Assembly: GCA_038501625.1 (NCBI GenBank)
Contig: JAZAYU010000254.1
Coordinates: forward strand, 496,001 to 560,000
Direction of reading: 5' to 3'
DNA: 64,000 nt
From: Corbicula japonica
Lineage: Eukaryota > Mollusca > Bivalvia > Venerida > Cyrenidae
Positions 7,632-59,699 of this stretch are shown piece after piece. Under the pieces are notes generated by a model. It saw only the letters and a list, made by a program, of their open reading frames with translations, had not been told where the DNA came from and did not search any database. The translations under genes and the position numbers were made by a program. How positions within the stretch are numbered: position 1 is the stretch's first letter; each line of letters begins with the position of its first letter.

Positions 7632-7639
7632 CTGAAAAA

Positions 7640-15157: not shown

Positions 15158-15346
15158 TTAATAATATTTAGATTTAATTGGAGCTTTGATTCTTCCAGTA
15201 CTCTCAATTTCGGCCCGGCAAAATGGGCATACACACTTCTCCAGGGAATATAAACATATTCTGCATAGTTGATGTCCGCATGGAGCGCAAAAGCAATCCT
15301 TTTTCCAGTCATAGCATATGCTGCATTGGTCCGGGTCTGCTGCTGC
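15158..15346 (-). CDS. C-terminal RING-finger exon (C3HC4), last exon of the microexon-array gene
   Basis: The minus-strand acceptor (TTTGTGTAG) at 15347 opens a 62-residue frame ending in TAA at 15158-15160. It starts AAADPDQCSICYDW and holds C8-x2-C11, C23-x-H25-x2-C28-x2-C31 and C40-P-F-C43. This is a complete C3HC4 RING-HC set with the usual CGH and CPFCR signatures. RING domains bind two zinc ions and normally recruit E2 enzymes for ubiquitin transfer, so an E3 ligase role is expected by family. The tail (R-A-E-I-E, then a short basic KSKYY) ends the protein. The exon enters in phase 0, matching the phase-0 ends of the connector exons at 23826-23893 and 28017-28096. Further exons may lie in between. 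Confidence 0.85.
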   Translation of the reverse strand, partial: AAADPDQCSICYDWKKDCFCAPCGHQLCRICLYSLEKCVCPFCRAEIESTGRIKAPIKSKYY

Positions 15347-27300: not shown

Positions 27301-30300
27301 GAAATATCTTTCAGCATGCAAATTATGAAAACCATCTGAATATTTTGAAAAAAATGGTCTAAACGAGCATAACTCCTTAAATAGATTCAATCGAATTTAG
27401 TGATATAGTATAAATTATAAAAAAGTACTGACGTCTTTGTCTTTCCTCTTCATACACATCCGCAGTAGAAAATGAAGTTGCAGTACCTAAGTTTGAAGTT
27501 GGGGTAGCTGAAAAAAATACTAAAGTTAACGCTCGAGTGGCAAATATTCGTTACCAACGACAGTTCGAAAGCGGTCGGTTTCATTTCATGTATTCTTTTT
27601 GTGTGTAGTTATTTTTTTCTGTAACATTAATTTACATCGTATATCGCTTACAAGAAATAAATGATAAAGTTCTTATCTAGCTTGGTTTATCGCCGTGTTT
27701 GAAGATAGCGATTTCTTTTTCGTCCTTTATTATAATAAATATATTAAAATAAGATTCAGCCGACGTAAATTATTTAGAATGACAAAAATCACTTAAGACG
27801 TTCCTGTTCCTCTTCATCCAACACTTCTGAAGTAGAGACAAAATTAAAGAAAAAGAGCGCTGCTGTTTTCATATAAAAAGTAATATTATGTCGATAATGT
27901 GCGTGACTGGTTGCCATTTCAACAAATCGGATGCTTGAGATTTGAGACTGGTTTCTAATTTCAGTTTTATGATCCTCAGCACTGAGCGGGGCCTCAGCGG
28001 AATGTGATAGTGTTACCTCGCGTCGCAACTCTTTGATAGAGGAGGTAAAATTGGACGGAGCTGCGGAAGATTCGGACGATCCTAGCGAAATGGCATCTTA
28101 GAGATTTAAAAGATATTGAACGAGGGAGAAAAATAATTGGTCAATGTATTCTGTTACAGAAGATAGAATTAAAGAAGAAGATTTAAATAGATGACCTAGA
28201 TAGACTTTTAAAGCCGCCTAGCACGACAAATATGAAAATATTGCAGGCTCGGTTTGATTGAGCTTGTTCATGGGCAGTAATGGAAATGCAAATTTAATTT
28301 ACTGAGAAGAATTAACAATCTAATTATGTTTTGTTTTCTACTCCTGATAATTCATCGTTATTATCCGTTGACAAATTAGATACATTTTTTTTATATTTTA
28401 TAGCTGATGGATCGGTTGGTTATTTTACCAAGACAGCTTGTACTTGTTTGATCATATTAGAACCTGTTGGGGCAAGTGTGAGGTTGGTGTACCGTAGAAC
28501 CGGATTTAACCCCCCCCCTTACCCCAGTGACAAATTGTTTGCCATTGACCGTTCCAAAGCCGTAACCCATCGGGTTCTCACTTTCGTAAATTGTTGGTGG
28601 CTTCTATTTTGAAAGTGATTATTGTATATCTATGCTTTCTTCTCTTCTCTACTTGTTGGCTGTGTTCGGAGGCTGTGGCCATTCCTGATATGCATATTTA
28701 ACTTTTGAGGAGTCATACTGGGGTGTAAAAAGAAGTGGCCAAGCAATAAAAGAAACCTGTATTTACCTGTGTCTACCGCTGAGTCGAATGACATTTGCGA
28801 TGAACGTATTTCTTCAGAGTCCAGTACTGAGGCTGATCTAAATAATGAATCTAAAACAACTCGAACTAAAAAGAAACATAAATCCAAAGAGTCAAGTACT
28901 AAAGCTAAATCAGCTGAAAAAGTTGTTGAAAGGATATCCTATTTTGTCAGTCGATAAAAATGGTCGTCTTAATTAATTAAAACGTATTATGTTTTAAAAT
29001 TTTCATTTTAGTTATCAGACACTCCGGGCCTTTTGTTAGTAAAAACAGAGGGGAGATGATTTTCAAAGTTTGAAGACTTGAATTTTGTCTAAAACAAATC
29101 CCCCGAGTTCACCAAAATTCGCATAGTAATACACTATATATGAAAATGGAACTTTGAAAGCCATCGAACACGAAATAAATATTGCAAGCTCGGTTTTCGT
29201 ATTCATGGGAAGTAATTGAAATGCATTTTACTGCCCTCGCCATCTTGTCTCGGGTTTAGCGCAACTTAATATTTACACTTATAAACAGCACAATTTCGTA
29301 AATCCAAACCGCAAAATAAGTCCAGTACCCAAACATGATAATTAATAAGTTCAGTTCTGTTATTTTTAATATCAAGTTAGTATTTTGATCATGATGGTAT
29401 TAATTGTTAAAACGTTACTAACGTGCTTGTCTGACTTGTCTGAGATCTTCAAACAATACCCCTAAAATAGAAAATGACGTAACTGGCAGAGCAAACTTGA
29501 AGTTGGGTTCGTTGGAAACAACACTATAGTTTACGCTTTATTAGCAAATATTCATTACCAAAAAACCGTTCGAAAGCGGTCATTTTCATTACATGTTTCA
29601 TATTTTATGTACATGTAGTTATTTTCTTATAACATTAATTTATATATTATATCGCTTACAAAAATTAAGGTGATAAAGTTCTTATACATAAATGTATAGC
29701 GTGGTTTTTCGCTGTGTTGGAAGATTGCACTTTCTGAATCATCCTTTTATAATAAAAGATTTCACCGAATACAACATAATGTTTTAAATTGAGGAAAACA
29801 AACACTTACATGTACGTCTTGGTCTTTCCTCTTCGTAAACCAACCCCGAAGTAAAACCTAAATTTAACGCTCGATTAGCAATTATGCGTTATCAACGTCT
29901 GTTAAAAAGCGGTGACCTTTCATGTTTATGTTGTGTTTTTATTTTCTTGTAAGTTTAAACATGATATAATATATATACACTATATCAGTTAAAATACTTG
30001 ATCACGTTCTTGTGCTTTACATAAATCTAACATAGTGTATCGTCGTGTTTGATGATTTTGATATCTTGTGGAACCTTTTGCAAGTTTTATCGCCGACACC
30101 AAGAGTTAATTAAAAAAATACAGGTGCAGTTAAAAATCACTATTGCAACAAGGTATTTCACAGCCAGTTTTTATGAATTTAATTTATAAACTTAAGAAAA
30201 TTAATGGCAATGATAATTTCTCCCGGTTATTCGTAAAAACTATCTGTAAATTCAAAAAGAAAGAATACCGACATGATATTCTGCAGCACTCTGCAGGCCT

Positions 30301-30696
30301 TGTGATTTACCCATTAGATTCTACAGTAAATCATTATGCTTACCTCTTTGATTTGACTCCAGGTGCTCTGGTCTCGGTAAGGTCATTGTGTACCCACCCC
30401 TTTGGCTTTACAATGCTTTCAGCTTCCTATGTTTTATATGTTTTAGTGCTTTTGCATGCAACAATGTTAAGCTGGTGCATGGGTTGGAGTTATTTCACTA
30501 AGACAACTTGAGCTGGTTTTGTGATGTTAGAACCTGTTGGGGCAAGTGTAAGGTTTGTGCACCCTAGTACCTGGTTTAAACCCCCAGTGGCAATTTGTTT
30601 TTGCATTGACCGTGCCAAGGCGGCATCCCCAAAGGTTCCCTTATTCGTTTATTGTTTGTGGCGTCCTATTTGAATTGACATACTTATAACAAACAT

Positions 30697-30764
<68 letters not shown>

Positions 30765-33700
30765 CGAGGCGTGGAAAGGCCGTGTTTTGTGAGTGTTGCG
30801 TTTCCTGATATGCATATTTTACTTTTTTTCGTTCCTTTTTTATTATTAATATTTTAAAATAAGATTAAACCTAAGATAACACTGTGTCTTCGTATTTAAG
30901 CCTGTTCATATATCACTCTGTATCGTAGAAACATACATTTAGTAGGACGTAATTGGTGGCGCAAATTAACAAACAAATATTAAAAATCACTTACGTACTC
31001 GCCTTTCTCTGTCTTCTTTCAACTTCTCTTAAGTAGGATAAAAATAAGTATGATTATCTTGCGGCGTAAGTTTAAAGTTAGGTTCACCTTAAAGCCTGAC
31101 TTGAAGGCAAATCCATGTTTAGTAAACGTTACCAACGAACGTTCGAACGCGCTTACCTTTCAGGTTCTATCGTTGGTTATGTTTCTTATTACATTACACG
31201 TAATATATATAATATATTATTGGTTACCAAAGCTACATGATAAAGTCCGTGTGTTCCCTTATGTAAGGTGTTATCGCCATGTTTACGAAAAATAATTAAC
31301 GGTTATAAATTCTTGTCGAAGATGGTTTATTGCCATGTTTGAAGATTAATATTTCTGATTCGTTTCCATCATGATAAATATTAGAATAAACCCAAGTTAA
31401 TAATATCATATTAACTGTAAAAGAAACCACTTACGTGTTTAATGCAATCACCTCTTAATTAGACGAAATGACGAAGCTAGTGGCTCAAGTTAAAAGCTGT
31501 GGGCATAAAACAAAACCCCTAAACTGAACGCAAAATTGTCAATATACGATACCATCATTGGTTCGAAACCAAAACATTTGTTTTTGTTAATTTTTTAATA
31601 CATTAAATTTGTTAATATTTTAAAACATTAAATTTACATTATTCTAATAAAAACATACCTGGTAAAGTTCATGGCTGAAGGTTATAAACTGAGTTTGTGT
31701 TCTCAACTCTCAAGGATCAGATGCTTGAGATTTGAGACAGGTTTCCATTCTCAGTTTTATAACATTGGGCACATATTAAGATGCAATTCGATCGATGTTA
31801 GTAAATATGGCTAAAAATGTAAATACATTGTAATCACTTACGTCTTTCTTGTTTAGTCATTTCATCGTCCACCTCTAAATTAGAAGCAGAGTGTAAGACG
31901 GACACAATTTTCCTTGCAAGTTTGAAGTTGGGATGGCCCTTAACATGTTTAAACTTCAATTGAAGGGCTTACTACACTCCTCCCAAGCACGTCCATCGAT
32001 TAAAAGAAAATTATCAAAATCTCAATAACTGCAAAATGCCGTTCAATGGCACCTTGCACAAATGAGTGTTACTACAGTATCCTTCATTTTGCATATGGTT
32101 AGACACGGTAAAGAAAAATAGCGAGATCTAAATATTTCTTAAACGTCTATTTACATAAATTCACAAAAACTAAACAACACAAAACATCATTTTAAATGCC
32201 CACATGAGTAATATATACTAACAACAGTTCCTTGTGTCCTTGGGACTTACATATTTAAACTTTATGAGATATAAGTAAAGTGTGTTTGACCTTCAATTTC
32301 CTTTTCGCTTCCTGGTCGCGTAAACGGATGACAATCATTGATTTCTCTTTTTGTAGTTGAATTTTTTTCACAAATTACACACCATTTTCTTTTCAGTATC
32401 AGTACACTCGCGTGGGAATTATTTTTTTGTATTGCTTAGTTTTAAATTTGTGAATTTATGTTAATAGAATTTAAGGAATTATTAGGTCTAACTTTTTTCA
32501 TTACTTTTCTTTTACGTGTAAATTTACATATTGCCGTTACTGAGATGAACGTGCTGAGGAGGAGTGTAGTAAGCCCTTAACGATCGGTTGATTGATAAGT
32601 ATTTGTTATAAACGACAATTTAAAAGCGGTTAAATCTCAAATTCAAGTTTTGTTATTTTATTACACAACTATTTATAAATTTTTCGGTTTTTAAAATGCC
32701 TGACAAAGTCCATGTGTTTACCTCATCTAACACCGCCCGTCGTGTTTAAAGACTGTGATTGTAAATTGGTTAAATATATAAATTAAAATTAGATTCCATA
32801 GTAGATAGCAAAATTACTTACGTATTTGTCTCTCAATCTGTTCGTAAAACATTTCTCCTAAATCAGAATAAACATTAAGTAGGAAGTAATATGCAGCGCA
32901 AATTTGCAATTAGGGTCGCCTCAAAACTAAATTTTAAACCTCTGTTGAAAGTTATCCTTATCAACAACAGTTCGAAAGATGTTGTCTAAGTTTTAATTAT
33001 ATATCATTTCTTGTCATTATCTTGCTACATATTTTTTTATTCTTATTGGTTGGACACAAGAACATAATTTCATCGATGTGTTTTCCTATTCTAACGCGGT
33101 TCCTCTCTGTGTATGAATATTGTGACATCTGTTTATATTAAAATGCATGAAAAGGGGAATTTTAAAAGCCATCGAACACGATAAATATGAGAATACTACA
33201 GGTTTGGGTTTATTGAGCCTGTTCATGGACAGTAATGGAAATGCATACTTTTGCCCTAGCCCAAGGTTGAGTGACACTCAATATTTACACCAATAAATTG
33301 TACGATTTCGTTCCATCCAAACGATGACATGCATATGGCGGTGAGTTCGTTTGATATTTAACAAAAGAATATAAACCCTCGTGTTTTCTGCTTATAGGTG
33401 TTATTCCTCATGTTTTGAACACAACATAATTCAAACAACAGGACTTAGTGTGATCAACCATTAAATTTGCATCAGCGATAATAGAATGTGCTCAACAGTT
33501 CCCCCAAGAAGTACCTTTTGAACAATTCACAATTCACAATTTTCTGATTTAAAATTTTAAAATATTACTCCAAGGTCCAAGATCTAAAAACTTAGATTAT
33601 AGACCAGTCTCAAATCTCAAGCATCTATTTGCTGAATGGTGACTGGTTAAGATTTTCATCTGGTCTCCAGATTTAGTTTTATGATCTTGGGCACAGTATA

Positions 33701-36700
33701 TGATTGCATGACTACAAGTATTTAGCGGTAACATCAGTTTAGTTTCATGATACAATCACATACTAGCTGAAGATTAAAACTGAGATTAGAAACCAGATTA
33801 AGCTTGCGATTGCCAATCAGATCCTTGAGTTTTGAGACTGGTTTATAACAAAATCGTTGCGATCTTTTAACAATTTAACAACATTGTTACAGTAGTCCAT
33901 TGAGATATCTTTCCTCAAATATTGCCAAACATGCAGTGTATATGACTCTAGTTAAAAGAATTATTAAAAATATAGTTCCTTAAATAATTATATAACCTAC
34001 GTAAGTAATACGATATTAACAATTAAAAACCACTTACGTTTTCGTTGCGAAACCTGTAAGTGCCTCTCTAAAAAGAAATAAAAAAACTGATGCTGCAAGT
34101 TTGAAGTTGTGTCGCGTTAAACCCAAAGTTAACCCACGACTGGCATTATCCTTTTTACCAGCGACAGTCCCTAAGCGTAGAATGTTCGTGTTCTAATCTG
34201 TGTCGTTTCTTGTCAAATGAAAATTTTATTTTTAATATTTTTGTGTCATCTTATATCGATTACTAAAAGAATCTGATTAATCCCATGTATTTCTCTACTT
34301 ATAGGTGGTTTATCACCATGTTTGACTGTGGTGCCTTGTTGTCTATTATATACACGCCCGACAACCGGCAGATTTAGGAGCGGACGGCAGATCCATGAGC
34401 TTACAAGGCCAGTTTTTGCATATTTCACAGAGGTGTAAGTAATTTTGAATCATTTTCGTTTCTTTTAATTAACTAAAAAATATCGATTGATTTTAAAAGA
34501 TCAATGGATTCCGCACCTATCCGTTGATTCCGATAGAGGAACAATGTAGAAAGGATAAAGTACGGAAGTTTGTTTTGAAATCTTGGAGTTCTGCATTTTT
34601 AGCAAAATGCTCCATAAATCTTACAGTCTGCATAAATCTGTAAGCACTGTTGGAAAATCTATTCCTTCCCATGGCAACATGTAAAGTATTAGCACAGACA
34701 GACTTATATTTAAATTCTCTTGAGCTTAGTAGTAGGTGTTTAGGTTTAAAAAGTGGCAGCTCCATGGAGCAGCAGGTGAATTTCATTTCCAGGGACCAGG
34801 AGCAGATATATTCGAGTACTGAGGATCGTTAAATGTATTCTCGGAATAGTCGTTTATGTTATTAATAATAAAAGTGTGTTGACAAACAGTGATATCATTG
34901 CCTGTCTTTAGGTCTGTAAATGTCACCCGTTGCTAATAAGTAAAAGAAACTATCCGGTTACTAAATAGATCTTTTAATTAAGACATATCAACAAAAATAT
35001 ATGCAATGTTGTTGACGTAAACGTTAAAACCACAGCAAAAGTTCTAGGATATGATGCAGGAACTCGCAGAGGTAGGCCCATAATTAAACTTGGTGTGTTT
35101 TAAATAAATCATTATTTGGACTCCCGTAACACTGATTTGTTCCATGTGAAGAGATTACATGTAAAAGTGTACAGAGGTAGTCAAAATTAAAAAAGGTAGT
35201 GAAAATTAAAGCTAGAGCTATTTTATTTTTCGACTAAAGATGACATTCTCTCATTCAACTTTAAAAAGGACCAACGATGGCTTACCAAGGTATAACGACA
35301 AAGACTGGTAAGTAATTCAAATGTTTGTCAAGTCAAGATTTCAACACAAACGTTCGTACTTAAATCGCATTAAATTTGTTTATTTTGCCTTCAACCTCTT
35401 CAGGAATAAACGGATAGGTTCAGAATTTATTCGCTTTTAAAGTCAACCGATTTTTCCCAAGAGTTAATAAAACTAGCAAAAATTAATTACTCATATCACA
35501 GTCAAATATGCAAAAAACTATCTTCTCTGCTCCTGAATCTGTTGTCCGTTTCTAGACCTGCCGGATGACGAACGTGATATGTATTTTAAATAAAGCCACT
35601 TATGTGTTATAAGGACACAAAATATTCAAACAGTATGATCAATAATGAACCTCCTAGCCAACGATTAACTATCTAGATCAAAATTTGGTCAATTGTAAGT
35701 TTGTAGTTAATTCCGCATTTTATGGTTCGACAAGGGTCGACAAGGTTACTTTTAAACACATTTGCAATTTACAAATATAACATAATTATCCGGGATTTAT
35801 ATAACTACAAAGCAATTCGCTGTGATAACATAAGTTTGATGTTAACATTATATTAACAGACTCGCACTGATGATACAACATTACTGATTATGCATTTTAA
35901 GGTAAAAATACCTTTTTTTGTCAAAATGTTAAAAAATATCAAATAAGATATTTGAAAATGAAAGATAATCGTCAATTACAATTGTATATCCAAAACTAAT
36001 AACAATTAAAATGTCAAAAATATGACCGAGGTCACCTTTTCCTGTGGCGTGCCCCAATTATACAAAAATCACTTACGTCTACGTCTTGCTTCCTTTTCAT
36101 CCTTTTCCACTAAAGAAGAAATAAAAACGACATTTTATGCAACTGGCGGCGCAAGTGTTTAGTTGTGTCACGTTAAAACCTAAATTTAATTTTCATTCAG
36201 CGTCCTAACGCGTACATCTTTCGTGCTTCAACTTTCGCTGTTTTCTGGTAACATTGAAATTATGTGATTATATCGATTACTTTAAGTAGCTGATAAAGTC
36301 CAAGTGTTTTTCTAATTATATAACTGATTAATCGCCCTGTTTGAAGGTTGAGATGTCTGATCTTTAATGTAAGTTCTCTTGTAAAAGGAATCCTCATGTT
36401 TGAACACACAAATTCAAACTAAATTGACCAATGTTAATCTTGTAACACATACTCGAGCGAGTAAATACATGTTCCAATCATAGAAAGGGGTAAATTGTAA
36501 GTTGTTTCGTTAAATTACTTATTTTATGGTTCGACGAGGAGTTATCTTCTTAACACATGTTTGAATTTACCAACGTATGAACATAGTGAATTAGATGGAA
36601 AATGATTTCCTCGGATTGGCCAGGCTCTGTGGTCATGTGACCAGTGGTTAGTTCGTTTGGTCCGTGCTTGTTTGGTCCGTGTCAGGTAGTGTCATTCCGC

Positions 36701-39700: not shown

Positions 39701-42700
39701 AATGAAATGCATATTACTGCCCACGCCGCCTAGCCCCGGGTTGAGCGCAATTCAGTATTTATAATAATTAACAGTGCAATTTTGATTCGTCTCAAACGAT
39801 AGTATGCATATTATCGGTGAACATGGAACCTTCAATGCGGTATTTTCAGATTTATACCATTCCATGTTCAGCGGCGTATGTTCCCCAAGATGAAGGTTTG
39901 GGTATGCCCTAAACGAGAAAACAATGGGCGGAACTAAACAGAATAGAAGATCAACACTTAAAGTAAAATATTTACATTCCTATTGATTTCTTCGTTTAAA
40001 AAAATTCGGTTCATTTTGCATGAATCGCATGACCCGTAATGACGTCAGTAACGTCATGGCTGTTAATATTGAAAACTCCCACGTATTACTCCCCTCTTTT
40101 CACTTAATACTAATTTTTGAAAGCATTCGACTTAAGTTTTTTTTTAAGAAAAAAATGAATAAAATGTAAATATAAGTAATGATTCTTATTTTGGTGCAGT
40201 TCATGCAGATTGGACGTGCACGCGAGAGCTGGCAAATTTACCATAAAGCGCTAGGGCGCTTTATGGATTTGCCAGCTCTCGCGTGCACGTCCAATCTGCA
40301 TAAACCGCACCAAAATAAGAATCATTCCTTAAAAAGTACAAATGTTTAAAAAACACTTACGTCTTTGTCTGGCAGCCCGTTCGTTTGCCTCTAAAATAGA
40401 ACAAAACAACATTTAGTAGGCCGTAACCAGCGGCGCAGTTTCGGTTGGGTCGCCTTAAAACCTAAATTTAACCATTTTTCGCAAATATAAATTACAATCG
40501 ACCATTCCTACCTGTCAGTTTCTATTTTACTTATTTTCTTGTTCCAAAAAATATCGGTTACAACGAATAACTAATAAAGAATGTTTCCTCGGACACTAAT
40601 TCCCCAACTGCTACAACAATGTTTGTAACAAAGGGTTATAACTCTGATAAAAAAGGCCGTAGGAAAAAACTTTTTCTTTAAGATCATCTTAAGCAACATC
40701 CTGCTTGATCATCTTCTTTTTCCTTTTCCGGCTCATATTCTTTGTTTTGTTAATTTCTTATAACATTCACATATGTTTATTGGTTAAAAAATAGCTAATT
40801 AAGTGGTCGTGTTTTTCTTCTCTAACGAGATTTATCGCCATTTATAAAGATTGCGATTTATGTGTCCTTCCTTGTGATAAAACTATATCAAAATTAGATT
40901 TAGCTAAAACGTTAACAATATTGTATAAATTTTGAAGATATCACTTACTTTTCCGTCTCTCAACCTCTCTATTCATCTTCTCTAAATTAGAAAAAAAAAT
41001 ATTAGGACGTAACTGGTGGTGCAATTTTAATGTTAGGGTCACGTTAACCGTTATGCCTAAATTTAACTTTCTGTTGGCAAATGTCACAAAGATCGTTTGA
41101 GAGCAGTTACCTTTCAAAATTTAAAATATATTATATACTTATTAAAGTTTACAAATCATTTCTATCAAAATCTCAGTGTTTCCAAAATCTAACCAGGTTT
41201 ATCGCAGTGTTTGAAGATTGGATTTCAGATTCGTCCTTTTTTATAATTATACTTAAAGAAATAAGAAACGCATTTTTTATACTCGAAACATATTTCATGT
41301 TTAAAGAAGTAAAGTTTCTAATTTCTTTAAGTATATATTAAAATTATATTCAACCGAAGTCAGTAATACGTACTAACATAGTATATATTGAACAAATAAC
41401 TACAGCCATTTCATATTCCACTTACAGTTAGCAACAGACATTTAGTGAGACGTCACTATCGACGCAAGTTTAAAGATAGGGCTGCCTTCAAACCTTAATT
41501 TAGCGATCAAATATACGTCACCAAACACGTGAAATATGCATTTTAGGAATGGCCACATCCATTAGACTCAGCCACTCTTCAAAGCCAAAAAAATAGAAAA
41601 AAAGACAGTTCGAAAGCTGTTACCTTTCAAGTTCATTGTTTGTGACTTTTTTTCTTAATTCATATTTTCTTCGTCTACTAAAATATATCTAATAAAGTTC
41701 TTGTGTTTCCTTGACTGAAGATTAAAACACCGAGATTTGAAACCAGTCTTAATTCTCAAGCATGTAAATGGTTGGAATGGCGACTGGCCATTTCAGCCAA
41801 TTAAATGCTTGAGATCTGAGACTGTTTTCCATTCTCAGTTTTATAACATTGGGCACTGATCTAACGTGGGTAATATCCATGTTTAAAGATATTTTAATTT
41901 GTTTCTTTCTATAATAAATGAATTAAAACATATATTCAACCGAGTTATTTATACGGTATAAATGTTGAAAAATCACTCACCTTTTCTTCTTACAGCCGCT
42001 TTATACATCTTCACTAAAGAAGAAAATAGTATGTACATGTACATTTTAGGACGTAACTGGCGGTGGAAGTTTAAACCGTTTTTCGATTAATTAAATAGTT
42101 GATTAGATATTTACCTTCAAAGTTAGCTATCAACGCCAGTTTTCTGCACTGACGTCAACAACGCTCGCCGAACACTTTTTCGGGGCTGGCTGAAAATTGG
42201 GGTTTCCAATTTCATTTATTCTTTCACAGATGAATTGGCGCTGAAATTACTTTTCCGGTGATATAAGATTTAACATTATGTGACCAGGTTTGACAACGTT
42301 GTGTACCGTTAAACGCCTTTTTTTTTCGTTAAAAATGGCGTCGAGTTTTGCCTTTTTTCTGTAGACTTTTTCAAAATTGTGAAAAATTCCCGAATTTAAT
42401 TTTTGATTTTTTTGCTTATAAAGTCTGAGAAAAGCAATTCCAATTGAATAATCGAATAAAATTTGGGGGTCACAGACTTAGTTATTGTGCTATTACCATT
42501 TTAAGTACCCCTATCCCCTTTTGAAAAAAATACATTATTTTTGGAAATTTTATAAAAAAAGTTCTTTTATTAAAAACGTCGTCAAAAGACACCACAGAGG
42601 AAGTTGAAATGAATTATTATATAAAAATGACATCTAATCGATTTCTCTTATGTTAATTTGTCAAAAATATCTTTAAAAACGTTACTAGGGGTAAAAACGA

Positions 42701-45700
42701 ACATTCCAAAATGCGTATAATACTTACGCCTATAATTTCTATTCGGACGTAATACTTATAATTATCAAGTATTTCGATGCTATACTTACAATTTAATAAA
42801 TTCTGCTGTTTTATTCATATATTGTCAAAGCATTTTTGCAAAGGCGTGCTAAATTTATTTAATAGTGTTCTTAATTACTCAAGAAACGCACAAGATTTCA
42901 GTGTAGTTATAGACATTTGATTAAAACTGTTCAAATCGTTAGTCTATGCACGTAATAGAAATACCGTTGCGCCTATTTGTGCGCGGTGACGCCTAAAATA
43001 ATTTTAAAAATATATTTCGTAGCCCCAGCAGATCTATAAAAGGAATTTCTATCAATTCTAGTTAGCTAACGGCCTTATTTTGTCTTGTAAAGAGTTAAAG
43101 GGATGACAAATAATCCACCAGCCGTGCGTATGTTTGATTTGTTCCCATTATTTTCTGCAAATATACATCTTTTTTTGCTTTTATTCTGCAATTTCAAATG
43201 AATGACATTGATTTTACCTGCATCTAAGGTAGTTTTACAGTTCCATGATGTGATGCTTCATTAGCGAGGTCGTAACTGTATTTCATTTACCCATATACAT
43301 TGTACTTCATATTGTGCAAATCCTAAATTCTTTTATGATTATCGAAGAGTTCACAGTTTTCTCATAAAAAGAGTCAAAGAAATTGTAGCAAAACAATAGC
43401 CAAGTTGTTAAGTGGTATGTTGCTTGAGCTTTTGTTTGTGACAGTGAGAATCGCACACAGTGATAAACGACACAACAACGGTGAGGACCGCGGAGGTATA
43501 GAATAAGTCCCTTGTTTTCTTGTTTATATGTACTTTCTCGGAAACTGCTGCGACACATACACTAACCAAGCAACATGTTCCTGGTTCCTGTACGTGTCTA
43601 TTTCTTATCCAGCATAGATTGCTAAAAAGTTTTAGACCGGCGGTTCCGTGCATATGTGCCGTGTCTGTGGATATGCGCAATATGCGATTTTTACTGTGTC
43701 GACATTCAACATAGAAATATACCACGAAATGAAGCAGCATCAGAAAATTGATGTAAAAATTGATTTAGTAATAATCCGAAATTCGTTTAACCCCTTCCTA
43801 TAATATAAATATTTACGCATTTTATCACATTAGCAAATAGCGCAGATCCAGATCAGCTTGCACATTCGATCTAATCGATTTCTCTTTTAATATTTTGTCT
43901 GATCAGGATCTGCACTGTTAGCTTTTTGGTCAGAAATAACCTTATAAATCAAAAGCGAACAGTGTAGATCCTTCGGGACCTACACTGTTCGTCCATTCCA
44001 TATAAGCGATTATATGGAAAAAGGCGTAAAGTGAAATTTAAAAATTAAAATTTACAATACTGCAAACAATTTTAATATAGACCGCAGTTTGTGTTGTCTT
44101 ATGAATTTTGTTTTGAATTATAACAGAAGCTACTGTGATGCAATAATTGAACATTGCATTATTTCCATTGATATAAATTAATTGAGATTTCGGGTAATGT
44201 TAAGTTGTAAAAAATTTTCACATATGGTTATAGACTGTTGTTCATCTACCCAGAAAATACCTAGTGTCAATAAATTTGATTTGCGGCATCAAAAGTTTCA
44301 TCACGAGTAAGTCGTAATGTTCATTGAGCTAAGTGAAGCAAATACAATTACATGTATACAGACAAGTTTTGCTTTAGTTTATTTCTGTAGTAGCATTTTA
44401 TTTCGCGGGGGCCAGTTTTCGCGCATAAGCCATTGCGGTGCCATAAAATTGCGCAGTTACATGTATATTACATTCAGAAGCATTCATGATAAGCTAACAC
44501 ATGGTTAAATTTCACTGCCCTTTCATTTCGCGCAAGTTTTCTAGTGCGAATTACGCGAATATTAGACTCGCGTGAAATATAATGATATGACAGTATCTCC
44601 AGAGGTTTCTCATAGCAGTTAGCCTTATGACGAGGATTTAGTCAAAAACCGAGTTTAATAATATAACTTTAAAATTATCGTGCAACATATGTAAGGCACG
44701 CTGACAAAATAACACCAGAGGGAAAGTTTCTTAACAATGTAAAGTCCAAAAATTGTGAAATTATCGGGCGAATTTACCTGCCCTTAAATCAGCGCATATT
44801 GTGTAAAAACATATTTTATTTTTTTTTTTTCGTTCTTCTTAAATTACCATAAGTCATTTTAGTTGCTGTAATATTGTAGAATTTGAATAAAGAGTCATAA
44901 ATTTTAAGAAACGTCACTTTTCTTTACACGTTTTTTAAAAGGGGAGGGGTGCTGAAAACGGCCATGGCGCAATAACGAAGTGGGTGACCCCCAAATTTTA
45001 TTCGCTAATTCTATTGGAATTGCTTTTTTCAATCTTTTTAAGCAAAAAAATCAAAAATTAAATTCGGGAATTTTTCACAATTTTGAAAAAGTCGACAGAA
45101 AAAGGAAAAACTCGACGTCATTTTTAACGCGAAAACGGCGTTTAACGGTACACAACGTTGTCAAAACTGGTCATATTATGTTAAATCTTATATCACCGGA
45201 AAGGTATTTTCCGCGCCAATTCATCAGTGAACGAATAAATGAAATTGGAAACCCCAATTTTCAGCCAGCCCCGAAAAAGTGTTCGGCGAGCGTCGTTGAC
45301 GTCACTGCAGAAAACTGGCGTTGATAGCTAACTTTGAAAGTAAATATCTAAACAACTATTTGATTAATCGAAAAACGGTTTGCGGATTTATGCTGGAATC
45401 ATCTTCAATAAATACCCTACCAAATTTCATAAAGAAATTAAAAAATTCGCAAAGTGTCGCGTTTCACCTTAAACCTTCGACGTTAAAACCTAAATTGAAC
45501 GTTCGACGTTAAAAACTAAATTGAACGTTCGACGTAAAAACCTAAATTGAACGTTCGATGTTTAAACCAAAATTAAACGTTCAACGTCAAAACCTAAATT
45601 GAACATTCGATTGGCAAATTTACGTTACCAACGAACGTTAGAACGCGATAACCTGTCATGTAATGTGTTTAGTGTTGTTTTCTTGTTACATAAATATTAA

Positions 45701-47193
45701 TAGCTTTTTTTCTGCTAAGGAACATACCTGACAGGCATTGTGTTTTCCTAATCTACTTGGTTCATTGCCATGTTTTAAGATTGCGGTTTCTAATTCGTTC
45801 ATTTTTTACGTACTAAACTTACTAGACTCAGTCGAAAGAAGGAATACTGTAAAAATCTCTTAAACAACAAATAAGTTATCGTCTTTGAAGTTATATAATC
45901 AATATCTTCTCTAAAGTAGAATAAAACATTTGGTAGGAGGTTACTGGCGACGCAAGTTTGAAATTGGATTCTTCTTAAAACCTTAATTTAACGATTAGGT
46001 GGCAAATATACGTAACTATAATAACTGTTGGAAAGCGGTCGGTTACATTTCATTTGTTGTAACTTACAGTTGATTTTTTTATAGTTTTTTTTAGTTTTTT
46101 TTTTAAATCTTGTTTTGTTTGCTTTTTTCACATTCACATTACTATTTTTATTGTTTACAACAAATACCTTATAAAGTCGTTGTGTCTTCCTATTCTAACG
46201 TGGTTTATCGCCGTGTTTGAACATTATGATTTCTGTTTTGTTCCTTTTAATAAATTAATAATATTACAGAAACTTCGTGTTTTTCCTGTTATATGTGGTT
46301 GACCGCCTTGTTTCAAACAAATGTACTCGAGTAAGTACGAGTACGGGTACAAGTACGAGTAGTGCAACATTCGCGGGGAAAAATTTGCCAAGAAGTCGCA
46401 TTAGACTGGGCAAAAGAACAATTCTTTGTATTTTATAATGTCGATGAAATATCGACTTGTTTCAAACATTGATACTCGAGTTATGAGTACGAGTGCAAGT
46501 ACGAGTAGCCGACTCTGTTTACAATTACATTACAGTACTCAGGCGACACAACAATCACGTAGTACGTCTTCATCTATTGACTGTTCATACTTTACTGAAT
46601 TAGAAAACAAAAACATTTAGTAGGACGTACTTGGAGGGGCAAGTTTAAAGTTTGGTCCCGTTAAAACATAAATTTAACGCTTGATTGGCAAAAGGTGACT
46701 GTTCAAAATCGGTTCTTGTCAATTGTCGTTTTTAGTCACAAAAGGTTTCCCGAATTTCCCACGTTTGCAATATAAATTTGTCGACTTCGGTGGCTTTCAA
46801 TTTTTTTTTATTAATAAACGTATGAACAAAATTGAACCAGCAATAATCTAGTCTTGTAATATCCAATGTGTAAACCGATCTTCCATAAAACACCAGTTGG
46901 GAAACAACAGAAGCGTTTCAAACGGCAGTTTTGTCTTTCGACAAATTTTGAGTAAATGAGATCAACTTACTCCGATGTGCTGAGAGCCATGTGTGTCCAA
47001 CTTTTAAACAAATATTGAAATATTTATATTAATAATTTTAGCAATGATTTCGGACGGACAATAGGCTACTCAAATTTTGCCATTTTTACATCCGTACTTA
47101 TATCCTAACATCATAATTAACTGATTGTTTAACAAAAAATTGTATGCATTTTAAAAAAGTTCTTACCTAATCGTTCAACTTCCATCTTCTGAT
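15158..47193 (-). CDS. Composite model: tandem-microexon, helical-cassette RING-finger gene
   Basis: This entry joins the minus-strand exons listed separately. From upstream to downstream these are microexons at 47167, 41981, 40949, 40361, 36077, 34038, 32822, 31842, 30995 and 29423; the Ser/acidic exon 28767; one of two connectors (28017 or 23826); and the RING exon 15158. All array exons are phase 1-1, so any subset can be skipped without breaking frame. Read in order, the joined cassettes contain no stop and give about 110 residues rich in Glu, Arg, Lys and Gln, as in coiled coils or single alpha helices. The expected product is an N-terminal helical rod of variable length, a Ser-rich linker and a RING. 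By family this would be an intracellular E3 ligase; no signal peptide was found. The translation start is uncertain (see 49119-49147 and 52109-52150). I do not recognise the architecture as a named family. Confidence 0.55.
15405..15629. mobile_element. MITE with GGGGCACG-type ends, copy 2
   Basis: The left end reads GCGGGAAAAGGTACCTTCGG and the right end GGTACATTTTCCCGTTGCGT plus GCCCC. The interior is AT-rich. It sits just upstream of the RING exon, within the intron. Confidence 0.75.
15745..15815. repeat. Short dispersed repeat shared with 7320-7380
   Basis: GCTAGGCGCTGCCACCGTGA resembles GCTAGGAGCTGTCGCCGTGA near 7326. Both are followed by a CGG..CT.C stretch and GGCAAT. Two diverged copies of an unnamed repeat. 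Confidence 0.4.
16446..19680. mobile_element. Large TIR element, 3.2 kb, 5-bp target duplication TAGTT
   Basis: The left end CACCCTGGCTAACCTGGTAC is mirrored exactly at the right end, which finishes GTACCAGGTTAGCCAGGGTG. Both are flanked by TAGTT (16441-16445 and 19681-19685). The inverted arms extend roughly 800 bp: left to about 17245, right from about 18893 by complementary GCTAGCTTTGTTC. The right arm contains an internal duplication (18720-18850 and 18893-19015). The interior has no long frame, so it is non-autonomous or decayed. The 5-bp duplication and CAC ends recall Transib/RAG-type elements, but the superfamily is not established. Confidence 0.85.
18435..18640. repeat. Inverted repeat nested in the large TIR element
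   Basis: TGTGGTGAAAAATGAAATGT near 18450 has its inverted partner ACATTTCATTTTTCACCACA near 18602. The arms continue into TGCAATCACTTTA and TAAAGTGATTACAGCA. Confidence 0.8.
19735..19870 (-). repeat. SINE-like repeat, 5' part only
   Basis: GAGACCAGAACCTCTGG, ACAGATCGGGCTTCTAAAAG, TTACAAGATTTCAG and CTTCATAAACTCTTAAACCC follow the same order as the full-length minus-strand copy at 60790-61370. Confidence 0.6.
19871..20121. mobile_element. MITE with GGGGCACGTCACGGG ends, copy 3 (best preserved)
   Basis: GGGGCACGTCACGGGAAAAG is mirrored by CTTTTTCCCGTGACGCGCCC. The TIRs extend to GGTACCTTCGGACA. Flanking ATAT on both sides may be the target duplication. Confidence 0.85.
20130..21235. other. 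Intron of the RING gene; little recognised
   Basis: AT-rich. A diverged partial family A repeat lies at 20603-20700 (GGGCCTGTTCATGAGCAGTC ... GCGCAACTCAATATTT). No exon is seen. Confidence 0.45.
21240..22680. mobile_element. Non-autonomous TTAA element (1.44 kb) carrying a tRNA-like sequence
   Basis: The perfect 19-bp TIRs GGTTTTAGAACTGTAATAT are flanked by TTAA (21236-21239 and 22681-22684). No transposase frame is present. A tRNA-Glu-like sequence lies at 22309-22382 on the minus strand. Confidence 0.85.
22309..22382 (-). ncRNA. tRNA-Glu(TTC)-like pseudogene
   Basis: The A box TGGCCTAATGGT and B box GGTTCAATCC are spaced exactly as in tRNA-Glu, and the anticodon position reads TTC. The base before it is C instead of the invariant T, and the acceptor stem does not pair. 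A run of eight T follows, which could stop pol III. Most likely a captured tRNA pseudogene. Confidence 0.55.
22685..23820. other. Intron of the RING gene; no supported exon
   Basis: A 35-codon plus-strand frame starts at 23096 (MSAPAHPPYRL) and is followed by AATAAA-like signals. Without splice or domain support it is not called as a gene. Confidence 0.4.
23826..23893 (-). CDS. Connector exon of the RING gene (phase 1 in, phase 0 out)
   Basis: A 68-nt exon between a strong acceptor (TTAACTGATTGCAG) and donor (GTAAGTAAA). With two leading bases it reads GTNESLKNEDSPRSS, then TALQHDA, and ends exactly on a codon. That joins in frame to the RING exon (AAADPDQC). Entry phase 1 matches the exit phase of every microexon. 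It is a polar Ser-rich linker between the helical cassettes and the RING. The other two frames hit stops. Confidence 0.65.
24110..24298. repeat. AT low-complexity tract
   Basis: Irregular AATAAAATA-type sequence, nearly free of G and C. Confidence 0.9.
24885..24965. repeat. Remnant of the microexon intron unit
   Basis: GTGATTTATCGCTGTGTTTT, GAAGATTGTG and CCTTTCTATAATAAATATAT match the same block of the units between 27.4 and 47 kb. No exon is left. This is the outermost trace of the array on the downstream side. Confidence 0.7.
25603..25663. repeat. Perfect hairpin, 28-bp arms
   Basis: TTGGTTTGTAAATTATGGAC plus AGTCATTA is inverted exactly after a 5-bp spacer (CCTGA). Confidence 0.95.
25994..26066 (+). 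ncRNA. Diverged tRNA-like sequence
   Basis: TTGCCCTGTTGGTAAAGC (A-box-like) and AGTTAGAATCCTGG (B-box-like) are at tRNA spacing, but the stems are poor. Probably a SINE or tRNA relic. Confidence 0.35.
26300..27380. other. No feature seen
   Basis: AT-rich intron-like DNA between the connector exon and the microexon array. Confidence 0.4.
27433..27459 (-). pseudogene. Decayed microexon (acceptor lost)
   Basis: 27 nt reading VYEEERQR in the array frame. The donor GTCAGT is present, but the acceptor position reads GCGG in place of AG. Confidence 0.6.
27797..27826 (-). pseudogene. Decayed microexon (donor lost)
   Basis: 30 nt reading VLDEEEQER with a good acceptor (TCTACTTCAG). The donor reads TTAAGT where the other units have GTAAGT. 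If read through, the frame stops four codons later. Confidence 0.65.
27900..27981. repeat. Foldback MITE, GAGACTGG family, one arm
   Basis: GACTGGTTGCCATTTCAAC, GATGCTTGAGATTTGAGACT and CAGTTTTATGATCCTCAGCA match the right half of the family consensus. Confidence 0.75.
28017..28096 (-). CDS. Alternative connector exon of the RING gene (phase 1 in, phase 0 out)
   Basis: An 80-nt exon between a pyrimidine-rich acceptor (TTTTAAATCTCTAAG) and the donor GTAACA. With two leading bases it reads AISLGSSESSAAPSNFT, then SSIKELRRE, and ends on a codon boundary. It has the same phase pattern and Ser-rich character as the connector at 23826. Because it exits in phase 0 it cannot join that exon in frame, but it can join the RING exon directly. 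The two therefore look mutually exclusive. Confidence 0.5.
28205..28310 (+). repeat. Multi-hairpin repeat (family A), partial copy 4
   Basis: GCACGACAAATATGAAAATA, TTGCAGGCTCGGTTTGATTG and TTCATGGGCAGTAATGG match the 5' part of the family. Confidence 0.75.
28400..28712 (+). repeat. SINE-like repeat, copy 2
   Basis: From TTTTACCAAGACAGCTTGTA through AGAACCTGTTGGGGCAAGTG and CATTGACCGTTCCAAAGC to TCCTGATATGCATATTT. Confidence 0.8.
28767..28850 (-). CDS. Ser/acidic phase 1-1 exon of the RING gene
   Basis: An 84-nt exon with acceptor GAGTTGTTTTAG and donor GTAAATAC. With two leading bases it reads SLFRSASVLDSEEIRSSQ, then MSFDSAVDT, and exits in phase 1 like the microexons. A second acceptor 13 nt further in would shift the frame and is not preferred. 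The opposite strand is also open here (28769-28957), but that frame lacks splice support and is read as a shadow. Confidence 0.55.
29148..29330 (+). repeat. Multi-hairpin repeat (family A), diverged copy 5
   Basis: ACTTTGAAAGCCATCGAACA, ATTGCAAGCTCGGTTTTCG and GGGTTTAGCGCAACTTAATA match the family 5' half. Confidence 0.7.
29423..29461 (-). CDS. Microexon, 39 nt (VLFEDLRQVRQA)
   Basis: The acceptor CTATTTTAG is good; the donor GTTAGT is weaker than elsewhere. Phase 1-1. The longest intact cassette of the array. Confidence 0.5.
29810..29847 (-). pseudogene. Decayed microexon (acceptor lost)
   Basis: Reads LVYEEERPRRT before the donor GTAAGTG. The acceptor AG is replaced by CG (TTTTACTTCGGGG). 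Confidence 0.6.
30355..30828 (+). repeat. SINE-like repeat, copy 3
   Basis: GACTCCAGGTGCTCTGGTCT through AGAACCTGTTGGGGCAAGTG to TCCTGATATGCATATTTTAC. Its CT-rich 3' segment has expanded into a microsatellite. Confidence 0.85.
30698..30760. repeat. (CT)n microsatellite, ~31 copies
   Basis: Pure CT run inside the SINE-like copy, at the place where other copies have CTCTCTCCCTCTCTTC. Confidence 0.98.
30995..31027 (-). CDS. Microexon, 33 nt (KLKEDRERRV)
   Basis: Donor GTAAGTG; the acceptor is CTACTTAAG. Phase 1-1. The cassette is strongly charged. Confidence 0.6.
31435..31453 (-). pseudogene. Truncated microexon (19 nt, frame broken)
   Basis: Splice sites of the array type remain (TCTAATTAAG and GTAAGTGG). 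The exon has lost about 14 nt relative to its neighbours and is not a multiple of three. Confidence 0.5.
31682..31774. repeat. Foldback MITE, GAGACTGG family
   Basis: CAGATGCTTGAGATTTGAGA, then TTCCATTCTCAGTTTTATAA and CATTGGGCAC. One arm is well kept. Confidence 0.75.
31842..31874 (-). CDS. Microexon, 33 nt (VDDEMTKQER)
   Basis: Acceptor GCTTCTAATTTAG, donor GTAAGTGATT. Phase 1-1. The other two frames contain stops. Confidence 0.6.
31965..32576. mobile_element. TTAA-type TIR element (~612 bp) inserted in the array
   Basis: GGGCTTACTACACTCCTCC at the left is mirrored by GGAGTGTAGTAAGCCC at the right. TTAA follows the right end (32577-32580); the left flank reads TGAA, one mismatch from TTAA. 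It accounts for the extra length between the microexons at 31842 and 32822. Confidence 0.75.
32822..32857 (-). CDS. Microexon, 36 nt (EMFYEQIERQI)
   Basis: Acceptor ATTCTGATTTAG, donor GTAAGTAATT. Phase 1-1. More hydrophobic and aromatic than the other cassettes. Confidence 0.6.
33150..33345 (+). repeat. Multi-hairpin repeat (family A), copy 6
   Basis: AAGCCATCGAACACGATAAA, GAGCCTGTTCATGGACAGTA and CATCCAAACGATGACATGCA are in family order. Confidence 0.8.
33580..33848. repeat. Two adjacent foldback MITEs, GAGACTGG family
   Basis: One copy at 33580-33697 (GACCAGTCTCAAATCTCAAG) and a second at 33766-33848 (ACTGAGATTAGAAACCAG ... TTTTGAGACTGG). Confidence 0.75.
34038..34067 (-). CDS. Microexon, 30 nt (RHLQVSQRK)
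   Basis: Acceptor TTATTTCTTTTTAG, donor GTAAGTGG. Phase 1-1. Basic, with fewer acidic residues than its neighbours. Confidence 0.55.
34400..36000. other. Intron of the RING gene; no supported exon
   Basis: Open frames on both strands at 34517-34832 (minus 89, plus 60 codons) overlap each other and show no domain. A right end of the GGGGCACG-type MITE lies at 36037-36056 (CCTTTTCCTGTGGCGTGCCC). Confidence 0.4.
36077..36109 (-). CDS. Microexon, 33 nt (EKDEKEARRR)
   Basis: Acceptor TATTTCTTCTTTAG, donor GTAAGTGATT. Phase 1-1. Alternating acidic and basic residues, typical of single alpha helices. Confidence 0.6.
37326..37540 (+). repeat. SINE-like repeat, copy 4 (short form)
   Basis: Starts at GATTTGCCACTGACCGTTCC and ends at TGATATGCATATTTCACC. 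Two other copies (54045, 62155) start at the same point. Confidence 0.8.
37800..39600. other. Intron of the RING gene; no exon recognised
   Basis: A somewhat more CG-containing stretch at 38500-39250 has short frames on both strands but no domain or paired splice sites. A small inverted repeat (AGGTCGC ... GCGACCT) lies at 39131-39174. Confidence 0.4.
39605..39950 (+). repeat. Multi-hairpin repeat (family A), copy 7, near full length
   Basis: GGGAACTTTGAAAGCTAGCG, GGCTCGGTTTGATTGAGCCT, TACTGCCCACGCCGCCTAGC, CATGGAACCTTCAATGCG and CCATTCCATGTTCAGCG, then CCCTAAACGAGAAAACAATG. It includes a 23-nt hairpin (CAGGCTCGG..GAGCCTG). Confidence 0.85.
40179..40326. repeat. Long near-perfect hairpin (arms ~70 bp)
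   Basis: ATTCTTATTTTGGTGC, CAGATTGGACGTGCACGCGA and GAGCTGGCAAAT are mirrored after a ~4-bp loop at 40252. It lies just upstream of the next microexon on the plus-strand map. Confidence 0.95.
40361..40390 (-). CDS. Microexon, 30 nt (ANERAARQR)
   Basis: Acceptor TTTGTTCTATTTTAG, donor GTAAGTGTTT. Phase 1-1. Confidence 0.6.
40949..40981 (-). CDS. Microexon, 33 nt (KMNREVERRK)
   Basis: Acceptor TTTTTCTAATTTAG, donor GTAAGTGATA. Phase 1-1; the last base is A rather than C. Confidence 0.6.
41250..41335. repeat. Inverted repeat, 21-bp arms
   Basis: ATACTTAAAGAAATAAGAAAC is mirrored (one mismatch) by a stretch ending CTTTAAGTAT. Confidence 0.85.
41427..41440 (-). pseudogene. Deleted microexon
   Basis: The donor (GTAAGTGG) and the intron block of a unit are present, but only about ten exon bases remain and no acceptor is left. 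Confidence 0.5.
41714..41857. repeat. Foldback MITE, GAGACTGG family, both arms
   Basis: ACCAGTCTTAATTCTCAAGC and TGGCGACTGGCCATTTCAGC, then AAATGCTTGAGATCTGAGAC and TATAACATTGGGCAC. Confidence 0.85.
41981..42013 (-). CDS. Microexon, 33 nt (KMYKAAVRRK)
   Basis: Acceptor TTTTCTTCTTTAG, donor GTGAGTGATT. Phase 1-1; the last base is G. Confidence 0.6.
42073..45381. mobile_element. Large TIR element (3.3 kb, arms ~430 bp) inserted in the array
   Basis: The left arm starts AAACCGTTTTTCGATTAA. The right arm ends TTAATCGAAAAACGGTTT. The arms match inward through GTTAGCTATCAACGCCAG, GGGGCTGGCTGAAAATTGGG and ACAACGTTGTGTACCGTTAA. No clear target duplication is visible. The interior holds a 110-codon minus frame (43408-43740) with one hydrophobic stretch and no recognised domain, plus a copy of the GATCAGGATCTGCAC hairpin repeat. 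No transposase is recognised. Confidence 0.85.
43838..43996. repeat. GATCAGGATCTGCAC hairpin repeat, copy 1
   Basis: GCAGATCCAGATCAGC is paired with TGATCAGGATCTGCACTGTT. A second hairpin follows around CGAACAGTGTAGATCC / GACCTACACTGTTCG. A related copy is at 50568-50780. Confidence 0.75.
45470..45615. repeat. Short tandem repeat (~28 bp x 5) grown from the array intron
   Basis: AAAACCTAAATTGAACGTTC is repeated five times with small changes. The same segment occurs once per microexon unit as TTAAAACCTAAATTTAACGC. Confidence 0.9.
45855..45912 (-). pseudogene. Decayed microexon (in-frame stop)
   Basis: A good acceptor (TTCTACTTTAG) opens the array frame, but it hits TAA after KILII and no GT donor is in place. 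Confidence 0.5.
46320..46515. repeat. Two blocks of GTACGA-type simple repeat
   Basis: AGTACGAGTACGGGTACAAG near 46333 and GAGTACGAGTGCAAGTACGA near 46485. Confidence 0.8.
46559..46594 (-). CDS. Microexon with weak donor (KYEQSIDEDVL)
   Basis: Acceptor TTTTCTAATTCAG. The 36-nt form (phase 1-1) needs the weak donor GTGATT. A donor GTACTA seven bases earlier would break phase. Possibly inactive. Confidence 0.35.
47167..47193 (-). CDS. Most upstream intact microexon, 27 nt (QKMEVERL)
   Basis: Acceptor TTTTATATTTTAG, donor GTAAGAAC. Phase 1-1; the last base is G. The shortest of the intact cassettes. Confidence 0.55.
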   Translation of the reverse strand: MRRWKLND

Positions 47194-47487
47194 CTAAAAT
47201 ATAAAAAAATGAAAACAGATTCTTAATAAAATCATACATATAGTTCAGCCGGGAAATTTGTCTAGGAAAATTAAGAATTATTTATGTTATAATGTTTAAA
47301 AAAATCTTAAGATATCCCAGGGCTTCTGTTGTCGATTTATTTTCAAGAGGCCTTTGATTTCATTTTATGAGGATTTATTCATAATTTTTTTCACCATCGT
47401 TTTAAACTTTGAAAGTTTTTAAATGGATCGGACACATGATTATTTGTCTTCCTGTCAGATCTCTTCAAATTACATAGACAAGGGGCC

Positions 47488-52826: not shown

Positions 52827-52966
52827 ATATCACCCTACTTTTGTATTTACCCAATATCACCTTACCTTTGTATTCACCCAATATCACCTTACCTTTGTAT
52901 TCACCCTATATCTCATTACCTTTGTATTTACCCAATATCACCTTACATGTACCTTTGTATTCACTA
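52827..52966. repeat. 27-bp minisatellite, second small block (~5 copies)
   Basis: Same unit and orientation as the array at 47488-48729 (ATATCACCTTACCTTTGTAT). Confidence 0.9.
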
Positions 52967-59340: not shown

Positions 59341-59367
59341 TTATTCGGACGCTCTAGAGTGACAAAC

Positions 59368-59630: not shown

Positions 59631-59699
59631 CTGGCAAATGTACGAAACATCAATTGATCATTCACAAGTGTTTCCTCATATAAATATAACGTTTTTGAA

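Follow-up and report, generated by a model that had tools for sequence, protein, structure and literature searches.

Fibrillar collagen genes contain many short symmetric exons that arose by duplication and encode a long rod, and E3 ligases commonly combine a RING finger with a coiled-coil or charged arm. We know of no ligase of the CBL, cIAP or RNF168 type in which such an arm is encoded on a microexon array. To judge from its title, a 1988 paper by Davis et al. reports exons of Schistosoma mansoni that are repeated in tandem and encode repeats of 81 bases. Here we analyse a locus of the bivalve Corbicula japonica, contained in a window of 64,000 nucleotides (nt) that corresponds to contig C254:496001-560000 (host assembly of 1.07 Gb in 1630 contigs), at which an array of symmetric microexons leads into an exon for a RING finger. 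The microexons, hereafter called cassettes, are numbered 1–9 along the minus strand. The locus is probably a protein-coding gene for a small RING-type E3 ligase, of ~203 amino acids in the window copy, whose basic arm would have grown by duplication of a microexon unit. Two other contigs of the assembly, C780 and C1084, carry collinear loci.

The passages on schistosome micro-exon genes (MEGs) cited here describe genes made of series of short exons, most of them symmetric, and long introns, from which alternative splicing is thought to give protein variants (PMC5825161, PMC10526429), and suggest duplication and shuffling of the micro-exons (PMC10526429, PMC5825161). One of these passages puts the share of short symmetric exons, of 6–36 bp, at ~80 per cent and states that the products are nearly always secreted or membrane-anchored (PMC5825161). 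As far as these passages go, the Corbicula locus resembles a MEG in its short symmetric exons, which are multiples of three in all 27 cassettes of the three loci. It differs in that microexons make up 46–47 per cent of the predicted coding sequence (if the start lies in cassette 1) versus ~80 per cent, and in that its predicted product ends in a RING. A preliminary description of the window, made from its letters alone, had set the locus apart from the secreted MEGs, and within the reach of the same passages these differences bear it out.

The exons of Davis et al. are, by title, likewise tandemly repeated and encode a repeated peptide, but the repeats are 81 bases long against the 27–36 found here. 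Those of fibrillar collagens are in phase 0 and multiples of 9 nt, and encode a Gly-X-Y triple helix in secreted proteins without a RING. The solved RING structures nearest to that of the window are those of CBL, CBL-B, RNF168 and cIAP; ligases of these types differ from the predicted protein, in which Pfam finds no BIR, TKB or UBA domain, and the absence of a BIR from the protein as assembled from cassette 1 also separates it from the IAP (BIR-RING) family. A literature search turned up no RING gene of this microexon-array kind among its top-ranked papers, and the conservation of nine cassettes in the same order at three loci suggests a real, apparently undescribed gene design.

Layout of the array and its RING exon

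The nine clean cassettes run from 47193 down to 30995 (Table 1). Each is a multiple of three and, read in phase 1-1 with a base taken from the preceding exon, contains no stop. Their donors in the window read GTRAG in nine of nine cases and their acceptors TTTAG in eight (the exception is TTAAG at 30995), in agreement with the near-identical splice sites first reported. Where the preliminary description counted about ten exons of 27–39 nt in phase 1-1, nine of 27–36 nt stand, whereas four candidates at 27.4–29.9 kb proved to be decayed, redefined or locus-specific. Its repeat unit of ~0.36–0.44 kb survives in three of the eight intervals of one repeat family (0.33–0.44 kb) and in cassettes 2–4 of C780 (369 and 339 nt), but neighbouring clean cassettes of the window are 0.6–5.2 kb apart.

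Between 15 and 53 kb of the window, a strict scan found eight charged microexons in frame, all of them on the minus strand, whereas 100 dinucleotide shuffles of that strand yielded a mean of 0.01 and a maximum of one; we therefore reject chance matches to splice sites. On the gene strand versus the other strand, the scan found ten versus none in C780 and six versus none in C1084. A separate scan of the three loci listed 14 candidates in the window, 17 in C780 and 13 in C1084, of which 4, 5 and 3, respectively, were excluded because they were not conserved or had no homology to the repeat unit.

The cassettes are followed by an exon of 75 nt (exon 11), one of 68 nt (exon 12) and a terminal exon with the RING. 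Phases match through exon 12 into the RING, no stop interrupts the joined frame at any of the three loci, and the predicted products have 203 (window), 205 and 206 residues. Exon 11, which is likely part of the gene but has a weak selection signal, is the better reading of a candidate at 27433: a 54-nt version after CTTAG becomes 75 nt when a stronger pyrimidine tract upstream is used, and the exon is open and of equal length at all three loci. Skipping of exon 12, which lies between the array and the RING, would break the frame.

The RING exon begins at 15346 and in phase 0; the bases before it are TAG in the window and C780 and CAG in C1084. The window RING matches Pfam PF13920 (E-value of 1.1e-9, above the curated cut-off), and its Cys/His pattern and the motifs CSIC and CPFCR are kept at all three loci. 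The E2-contact residues of a RING are a hydrophobic residue in the first Cys pair, the Pro before the last Cys and the Arg after the last Cys, which is activating; through these motifs they are retained at all three loci. Between the window and C780, nonsynonymous change (pN) in the RING exon is 0.034 and synonymous change (pS) is 0.217 (pN/pS ~0.16). A genome search with the RING peptide retrieved three copies of at least 90 per cent identity (the window, C780:99658-99843 and C1084:61876-62061) and 30 others at 33–46 per cent; among the genome's remaining RING exons are frames that join a coiled coil to a RING and span up to 243 residues. Beside other RING exons, only single candidate exons and no microexon array were found, in 17 loci of 3 kb (L022-L038, flanks of ~1.5 kb) and two 5-kb stretches (L049, L050). 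The central claim of the preliminary description, an array of symmetric microexons made by tandem duplication and leading to a RING, is upheld.

Three collinear loci and the history of the array

The window is collinear with C780 over ~50 kb and with C1084 over ~28 kb. All 27 cassettes (nine at each locus, in order) are multiples of three, open in phase 1-1 and bounded by GTRAG donors and AG acceptors. Intron flanks, from which those more than 35 per cent different were excluded before counting, diverge by 0.186 between the window and C780, 0.203 between the window and C1084, and 0.153 between C780 and C1084. Such divergence is high for alleles, and the loci appear to be paralogous or strongly diverged; C780 and C1084 may be haplotypes of one locus.

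In trees of the repeat units (exon plus 85 nt upstream and 50 nt downstream), units group by position and not by locus for all eight of cassettes 2–9 (with support of 93/88 to 100/100). The duplications behind these cassettes therefore predate the split of the loci, and the same grouping speaks against the earlier characterization of the cassettes as interchangeable, since each appears specific to its position. A profile made from eight upstream cassette flanks detects 13 places on the minus strand of the window at E-values below 1e-4 (the eight included), as well as weaker matches inside the array at 27489-27558 and 31449-31555 (E-values of 0.003–0.004) and a comparably strong one outside it at 11136-11207 (E-value of 0.0014); it also detects units in C780 and C1084. 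By eye, units at 46559, at 45882, near 41429-41509, near 31449-31555 and in the 27–30 kb region are without a usable splice site. The array thus arose by tandem duplication and contains old kept copies as well as decayed ones. Cassette 1 is not matched by the profile and is therefore perhaps the ancestral first coding exon.

A tenth cassette varies in copy number among the loci, being doubled and intact in C780, single and intact in C1084, and donor-broken in the window. Its donor reads GTAAGTGA in C1084 and in one C780 copy, and GTGAGTGA in the other C780 copy; the window copy, with TTAAGTGA at that position, is probably not spliced. Evolution at these loci shows that the predicted gene design tolerates the gain and loss of cassettes.

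One exon-plus-intron unit, of ~0.35 kb judged from the closest spacings, was tandemly duplicated into cassettes 2–9 before the loci split, and the cassettes then held their order while units were gained, doubled or lost at the array edges. Translation would begin in cassette 1, and the microexons, spliced in a mostly constitutive manner, would yield a basic, E/K/R/Q-rich and possibly helical arm of 93–96 residues. This arm might self-associate or bind a substrate or nucleic acids, and an E2 would be recruited by the RING. As the cassettes are symmetric, their addition or loss in evolution, or their skipping by splicing, would be possible without breaking the frame into the RING. The locus would offer a clean natural case of arm lengthening, by one 9–12 residue cassette per duplication of a symmetric microexon, at three parallel loci with old kept cassettes in mid-array and with gain, doubling and loss at the edges. 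Since such exons easily escape gene annotation, related genes may exist unlisted.

A segment that is 97.7 per cent identical between window 22943-23628 and C780:88326-89011 lies at different places in the two loci. It is far younger than the loci and is therefore probably a recently mobile element. The C780 copy stops 16 nt short of cassette 9, whose acceptor it may partly supply.

Selection, the predicted arm and alternative readings

Pooled over the cassettes, synonymous and nonsynonymous changes number 13.0 and 30.0 between the window and C780 (pN 0.128, pS 0.241), 9.0 and 30.0 between the window and C1084 (pN 0.129, pS 0.165), and 5.0 and 8.0 between C780 and C1084 (pN 0.033, pS 0.088). 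In all three pairs, pN is below the intron-flank divergence (0.128 versus 0.186, 0.129 versus 0.203 and 0.033 versus 0.153). Between the window and C780, synonymous versus nonsynonymous changes number 4 versus 0 in cassette 3, 2 versus 1 in cassette 4, 3 versus 1 in cassette 5, 1 versus 4 in cassette 1, and 1 versus 1 in cassette 9. Constraint is clear for the RING and cassettes 3–5, and absent for cassettes 6 and 7. Exon 12 has a pN of 0.111 and a pS of 0.337, from an alignment that overran the 3-nt deletion near the exon end. Exon indels keep the frame in three of three cases (6 nt in cassette 1, 3 nt in cassette 9 and 3 nt in exon 12), versus 8 of 26 in intron flanks (one-sided Fisher test; P-value = 0.045), a difference that is indicative only, since exons entered the comparison by being intact, without the decayed units, and the pairs overlap.

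Besides this bias, several observations weigh against a gene of the proposed form. Splicing, expression, the helix, E3 activity and cellular location are all predicted from the DNA sequence, which itself shows order, frames, splice signals, some constraint and confinement. The longest introns measure 8.7 kb in the window and 9.8 kb in C780. The predicted protein had no homologue in a protein collection at an E-value of 0.001 (one candidate for residues 100–180 of a 180-residue version, 275 candidates for the 203-residue version). For cassette 2 of C780 and C1084 and cassette 1 of C780, the scan listed longer in-frame forms from a nearby upstream AG, and the TTTAG forms were used. The donor of exon 11 is GTCAGT in the window and GCAAGT in C780 and C1084, and its pN/pS is similar in frame 0, only the proposed frame being free of stops. 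Constraint on the pooled cassettes is weak between the window and C1084, where pN is 0.129 and pS 0.165, and all counts are small. In the comparison of the window with C780, all changes in cassettes 2 and 8 are nonsynonymous (2 and 4), and in cassettes 6 and 7 nonsynonymous changes (7 and 10) outnumber synonymous ones (1 and 1).

The predicted arm has 93, 96 and 96 residues in the window, C780 and C1084, respectively, of which 66, 62 and 59 per cent are D/E/K/R/Q, and a net charge of +12, +10 and +9; the early statement that the joined exons of the window lack a stop and are charged holds. Their description as a helix fares less well: the composition is rich in helix formers, but prolines occur in cassettes 6–7 of C780 and C1084, and two tests also count against the proposal, one of salt bridges (attractive minus repulsive i to i+3/4 pairs; P-values of 0.103, 0.062 and 0.076) and one of amphipathicity (P-values of 0.088, 0.282 and 0.265). 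As helix formers are abundant but both tests are non-significant, a rod is a fair guess only.

There is an appreciable, if lesser, chance that the gene is longer, with unrecognised 5' exons that precede cassette 1 and add another domain or a signal peptide. The acceptor that cassette 1 has at all three loci implies that it is preceded by at least a 5' untranslated exon. Two further points here count against a start in cassette 1: a search for conserved upstream coding exons established no first exon, and the upstream donors 59622 and 58789, which are kept in C780 (C1084 has no alignment there), end phase-1 frames with an ATG. Donor 59622 sits in a Cys-rich frame of a neighbouring gene. Against additional coding exons stand the ATG of cassette 1, which is kept at all three loci, and donor 54472 (GTAAGT in C780, GTACGT in C1084), the only upstream donor aligned in both other loci, which ends a frame without an ATG. 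With the 5' end not found and the two ATG-frame donors backed by C780 alone, the start in cassette 1 is a guess; if it is assumed, the predicted starts MEVERL and MEIERT do not look like signal peptides by eye.

We find it doubtful that splicing includes the cassettes alternatively and that a single gene would thereby give many arms varying in length and charge. Nine symmetric cassettes in one common phase would allow this: all 256 subsets of cassettes 2–9 keep the frame at each of the three loci, and the preliminary claim that any combination preserves frame holds to that extent, but not for exon 12, whose 68 nt cannot be skipped in frame. The copy number of cassette 10, which already differs among the loci, also speaks for such use. 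However, symmetry is the automatic result of duplicating one symmetric exon, and the splice sites are uniform and near consensus (unscored), as in constitutive exons. The positional clustering of units, hence the lack of cassette swapping, indicates that each cassette has retained its identity, an outcome at least as compatible with constitutive as with combinatorial use. Nor was a docking/selector pattern recognised in 25 of 117 inverted pairs, and mutually exclusive splicing through such pairing is unsupported. The fuller version, a cytosolic or nuclear RING ligase whose cassettes would be skipped or included by tissue or individual to give up to 256 arm variants from cassettes 2–9, strikes us as rather unlikely. 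If combinatorial use were true, the locus would represent an animal system of microexon diversity beyond flatworms and beyond secreted proteins, with an array copy number that is still changing from one gene copy to another; variable inclusion would make it an independent, intracellular-ligase counterpart to the flatworm micro-exon genes.

That the array is the decaying remnant of a former gene, and the three loci non-functional duplicates, is improbable. Splice sites are gone from several units, cassettes 6 and 7 appear free of constraint when the window is compared with C780 and C1084, and introns are inflated by repeat insertions, among them the young C780 insertion that ends 16 nt before cassette 9. 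Nevertheless, the nine cassettes, exon 12 and the RING are open and have their splice sites at all three loci despite 15–20 per cent intron divergence, and the pN/pS of the RING is ~0.16.

Against the whole assembly, the cassette 3 unit had five matches, the cassette 5 unit three and query 27433-27820 twenty, all in the three collinear contigs, in a search that scores only the best candidates and that far-diverged units could escape. Units scattered genome-wide outside any gene, which the preliminary description had regarded as evidence against itself, were thus not found (28 of 28 matches lie in the three loci). Query 27676-28097 had 66 matches. The 63 that lie elsewhere all run through an inner 80-nt stretch (query 228-312), an intronic dispersed repeat that contains no cassette; query 27433-27820 ends before it. 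A genome search for an acceptor, 25–34 bases and a donor gave 20 matches, 6 in the three loci and 14 without resemblance by eye, versus 29 in the reversed control. Although the units have intron sequence in common and query 27676-28097 matches widely, the cassette-free stretch behind its matches elsewhere, the complete confinement of the three unit searches and the excess in the reversed control lead us to reject as scarcely credible the reading of the unit as part of a transposable element or satellite, exon-like in appearance only.

Feature coordinates, array edges and neighbouring sequences

Table 1. Exons, candidate exons and decayed units of the locus, in gene order (window coordinates).
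Feature	Position	Strand	Length and phase	Peptide and remarks
Cassette 1	47167..47193	-	27 nt	QKMEVERL; candidate start codon; 33 nt in C780 and C1084 (6-nt in-frame difference)
Degenerate unit, intron 1	46559..46594	-		Weak donor; window-specific or lost elsewhere
Degenerate unit, intron 1	45882..45911	-		Donor GATAAC
Cassette 2	41981..42013	-	33 nt	KMYKAAVRRK
Cassette 3	40949..40981	-	33 nt	KMNREVERRK; protein identical at all three loci; synonymous changes versus window: 4 (C780), 3 (C1084)
Cassette 4	40361..40390	-	30 nt	ANERAARQR
Cassette 5	36077..36109	-	33 nt	EKDEKEARRR
Cassette 6	34038..34067	-	30 nt	RHLQVSQRK; diverged, RHEKALQPN in C780 and C1084
Cassette 7	32822..32857	-	36 nt	EMFYEQIERQI; diverged, EWSSDW[VA]ER[RQ]I in C780 and C1084
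Cassette 8	31842..31874	-	33 nt	VDDEMTKQER
Cassette 9	30995..31027	-	33 nt	KLKEDRERRV; acceptor TTAAG; 36 nt in C780 and C1084 (3-nt in-frame difference)
Unit with seemingly lost original acceptor	29810..29857	-	48 nt	Exon would need upstream pyrimidine-poor TTTAG
Candidate cassette	29423..29461	-	39 nt	Donor GTTAGT
Cassette 10 remnant	27797..27826	-		Bases aligned to donor read TTAAGTGA in window
Exon 11 (likely)	27433..27507	-	75 nt, phase 1-1	TPTSNLGTATSFSTADVYEEERQR; Ser/Thr-rich linker
Exon 12	23826..23893	-	68 nt, phase 1 to 0	GTNESLKNEDSPRSSTALQHDA; 3-nt in-frame deletion in C780
Terminal exon	15158..15346	-	Phase 0, stop included	C3HC4 RING finger and C-terminus

At the array edge, the 39-nt candidate at 29423 has a clean 27-nt in-frame counterpart with the donor GTAAGT in C780 (92056-92082) and none listed in C1084, and the scan listed no exon corresponding to 29810 at any of the three loci. 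Large inverted repeats lie in introns of the gene at 16446-19680 (277 nt, 88 per cent) and 42073-45381 (250 nt, 94 per cent complementary), and one arm of the latter (42073-42322) coincides in part with the unit preceding cassette 2. A 27-bp minisatellite with long open stretches in several frames lies just upstream of cassette 1, at 47486-48728 (~46 copies) and 52827-52946 (~4 copies). A tandem array of a 166-bp repeat lies at window 27-2794 (16.7 copies, 93 per cent matches).

Cys-rich frames at 59354-59725 (-) and at 6274-7029 and 7558-7647 (-) flank the RING gene on the same strand and have the pattern NTICxDG...GLxCHPY...CADFAIQxGCxCP. The frame at 59354-59725 has a weak match to Mucin2_WxxW (E-value of 0.05, below the cut-off), and the other has no Pfam match; similar frames occur in C780 at 108648-109391 and 135014-135766.

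Elsewhere in the genome, highly similar terminal RING exons (VSFRLPENESTCGICYD...; VSFRLPENEST...) are present in multiple copies on many contigs, three of them on C230 (loci L025-L031, L033 and L035), and the last exon of this group also seems to start in phase 0. The mitochondrial contig C1630 (L051) contains a COX2 frame of ~400 residues, far over the usual length and with a long inner insertion, a feature reminiscent of some bivalves that agrees with, but does not prove, the molluscan setting of the preliminary description. Pointing to a probable invertebrate animal, the COX1 frame of the same contig has nine internal TGA codons under the standard code and is open under the invertebrate mitochondrial code.

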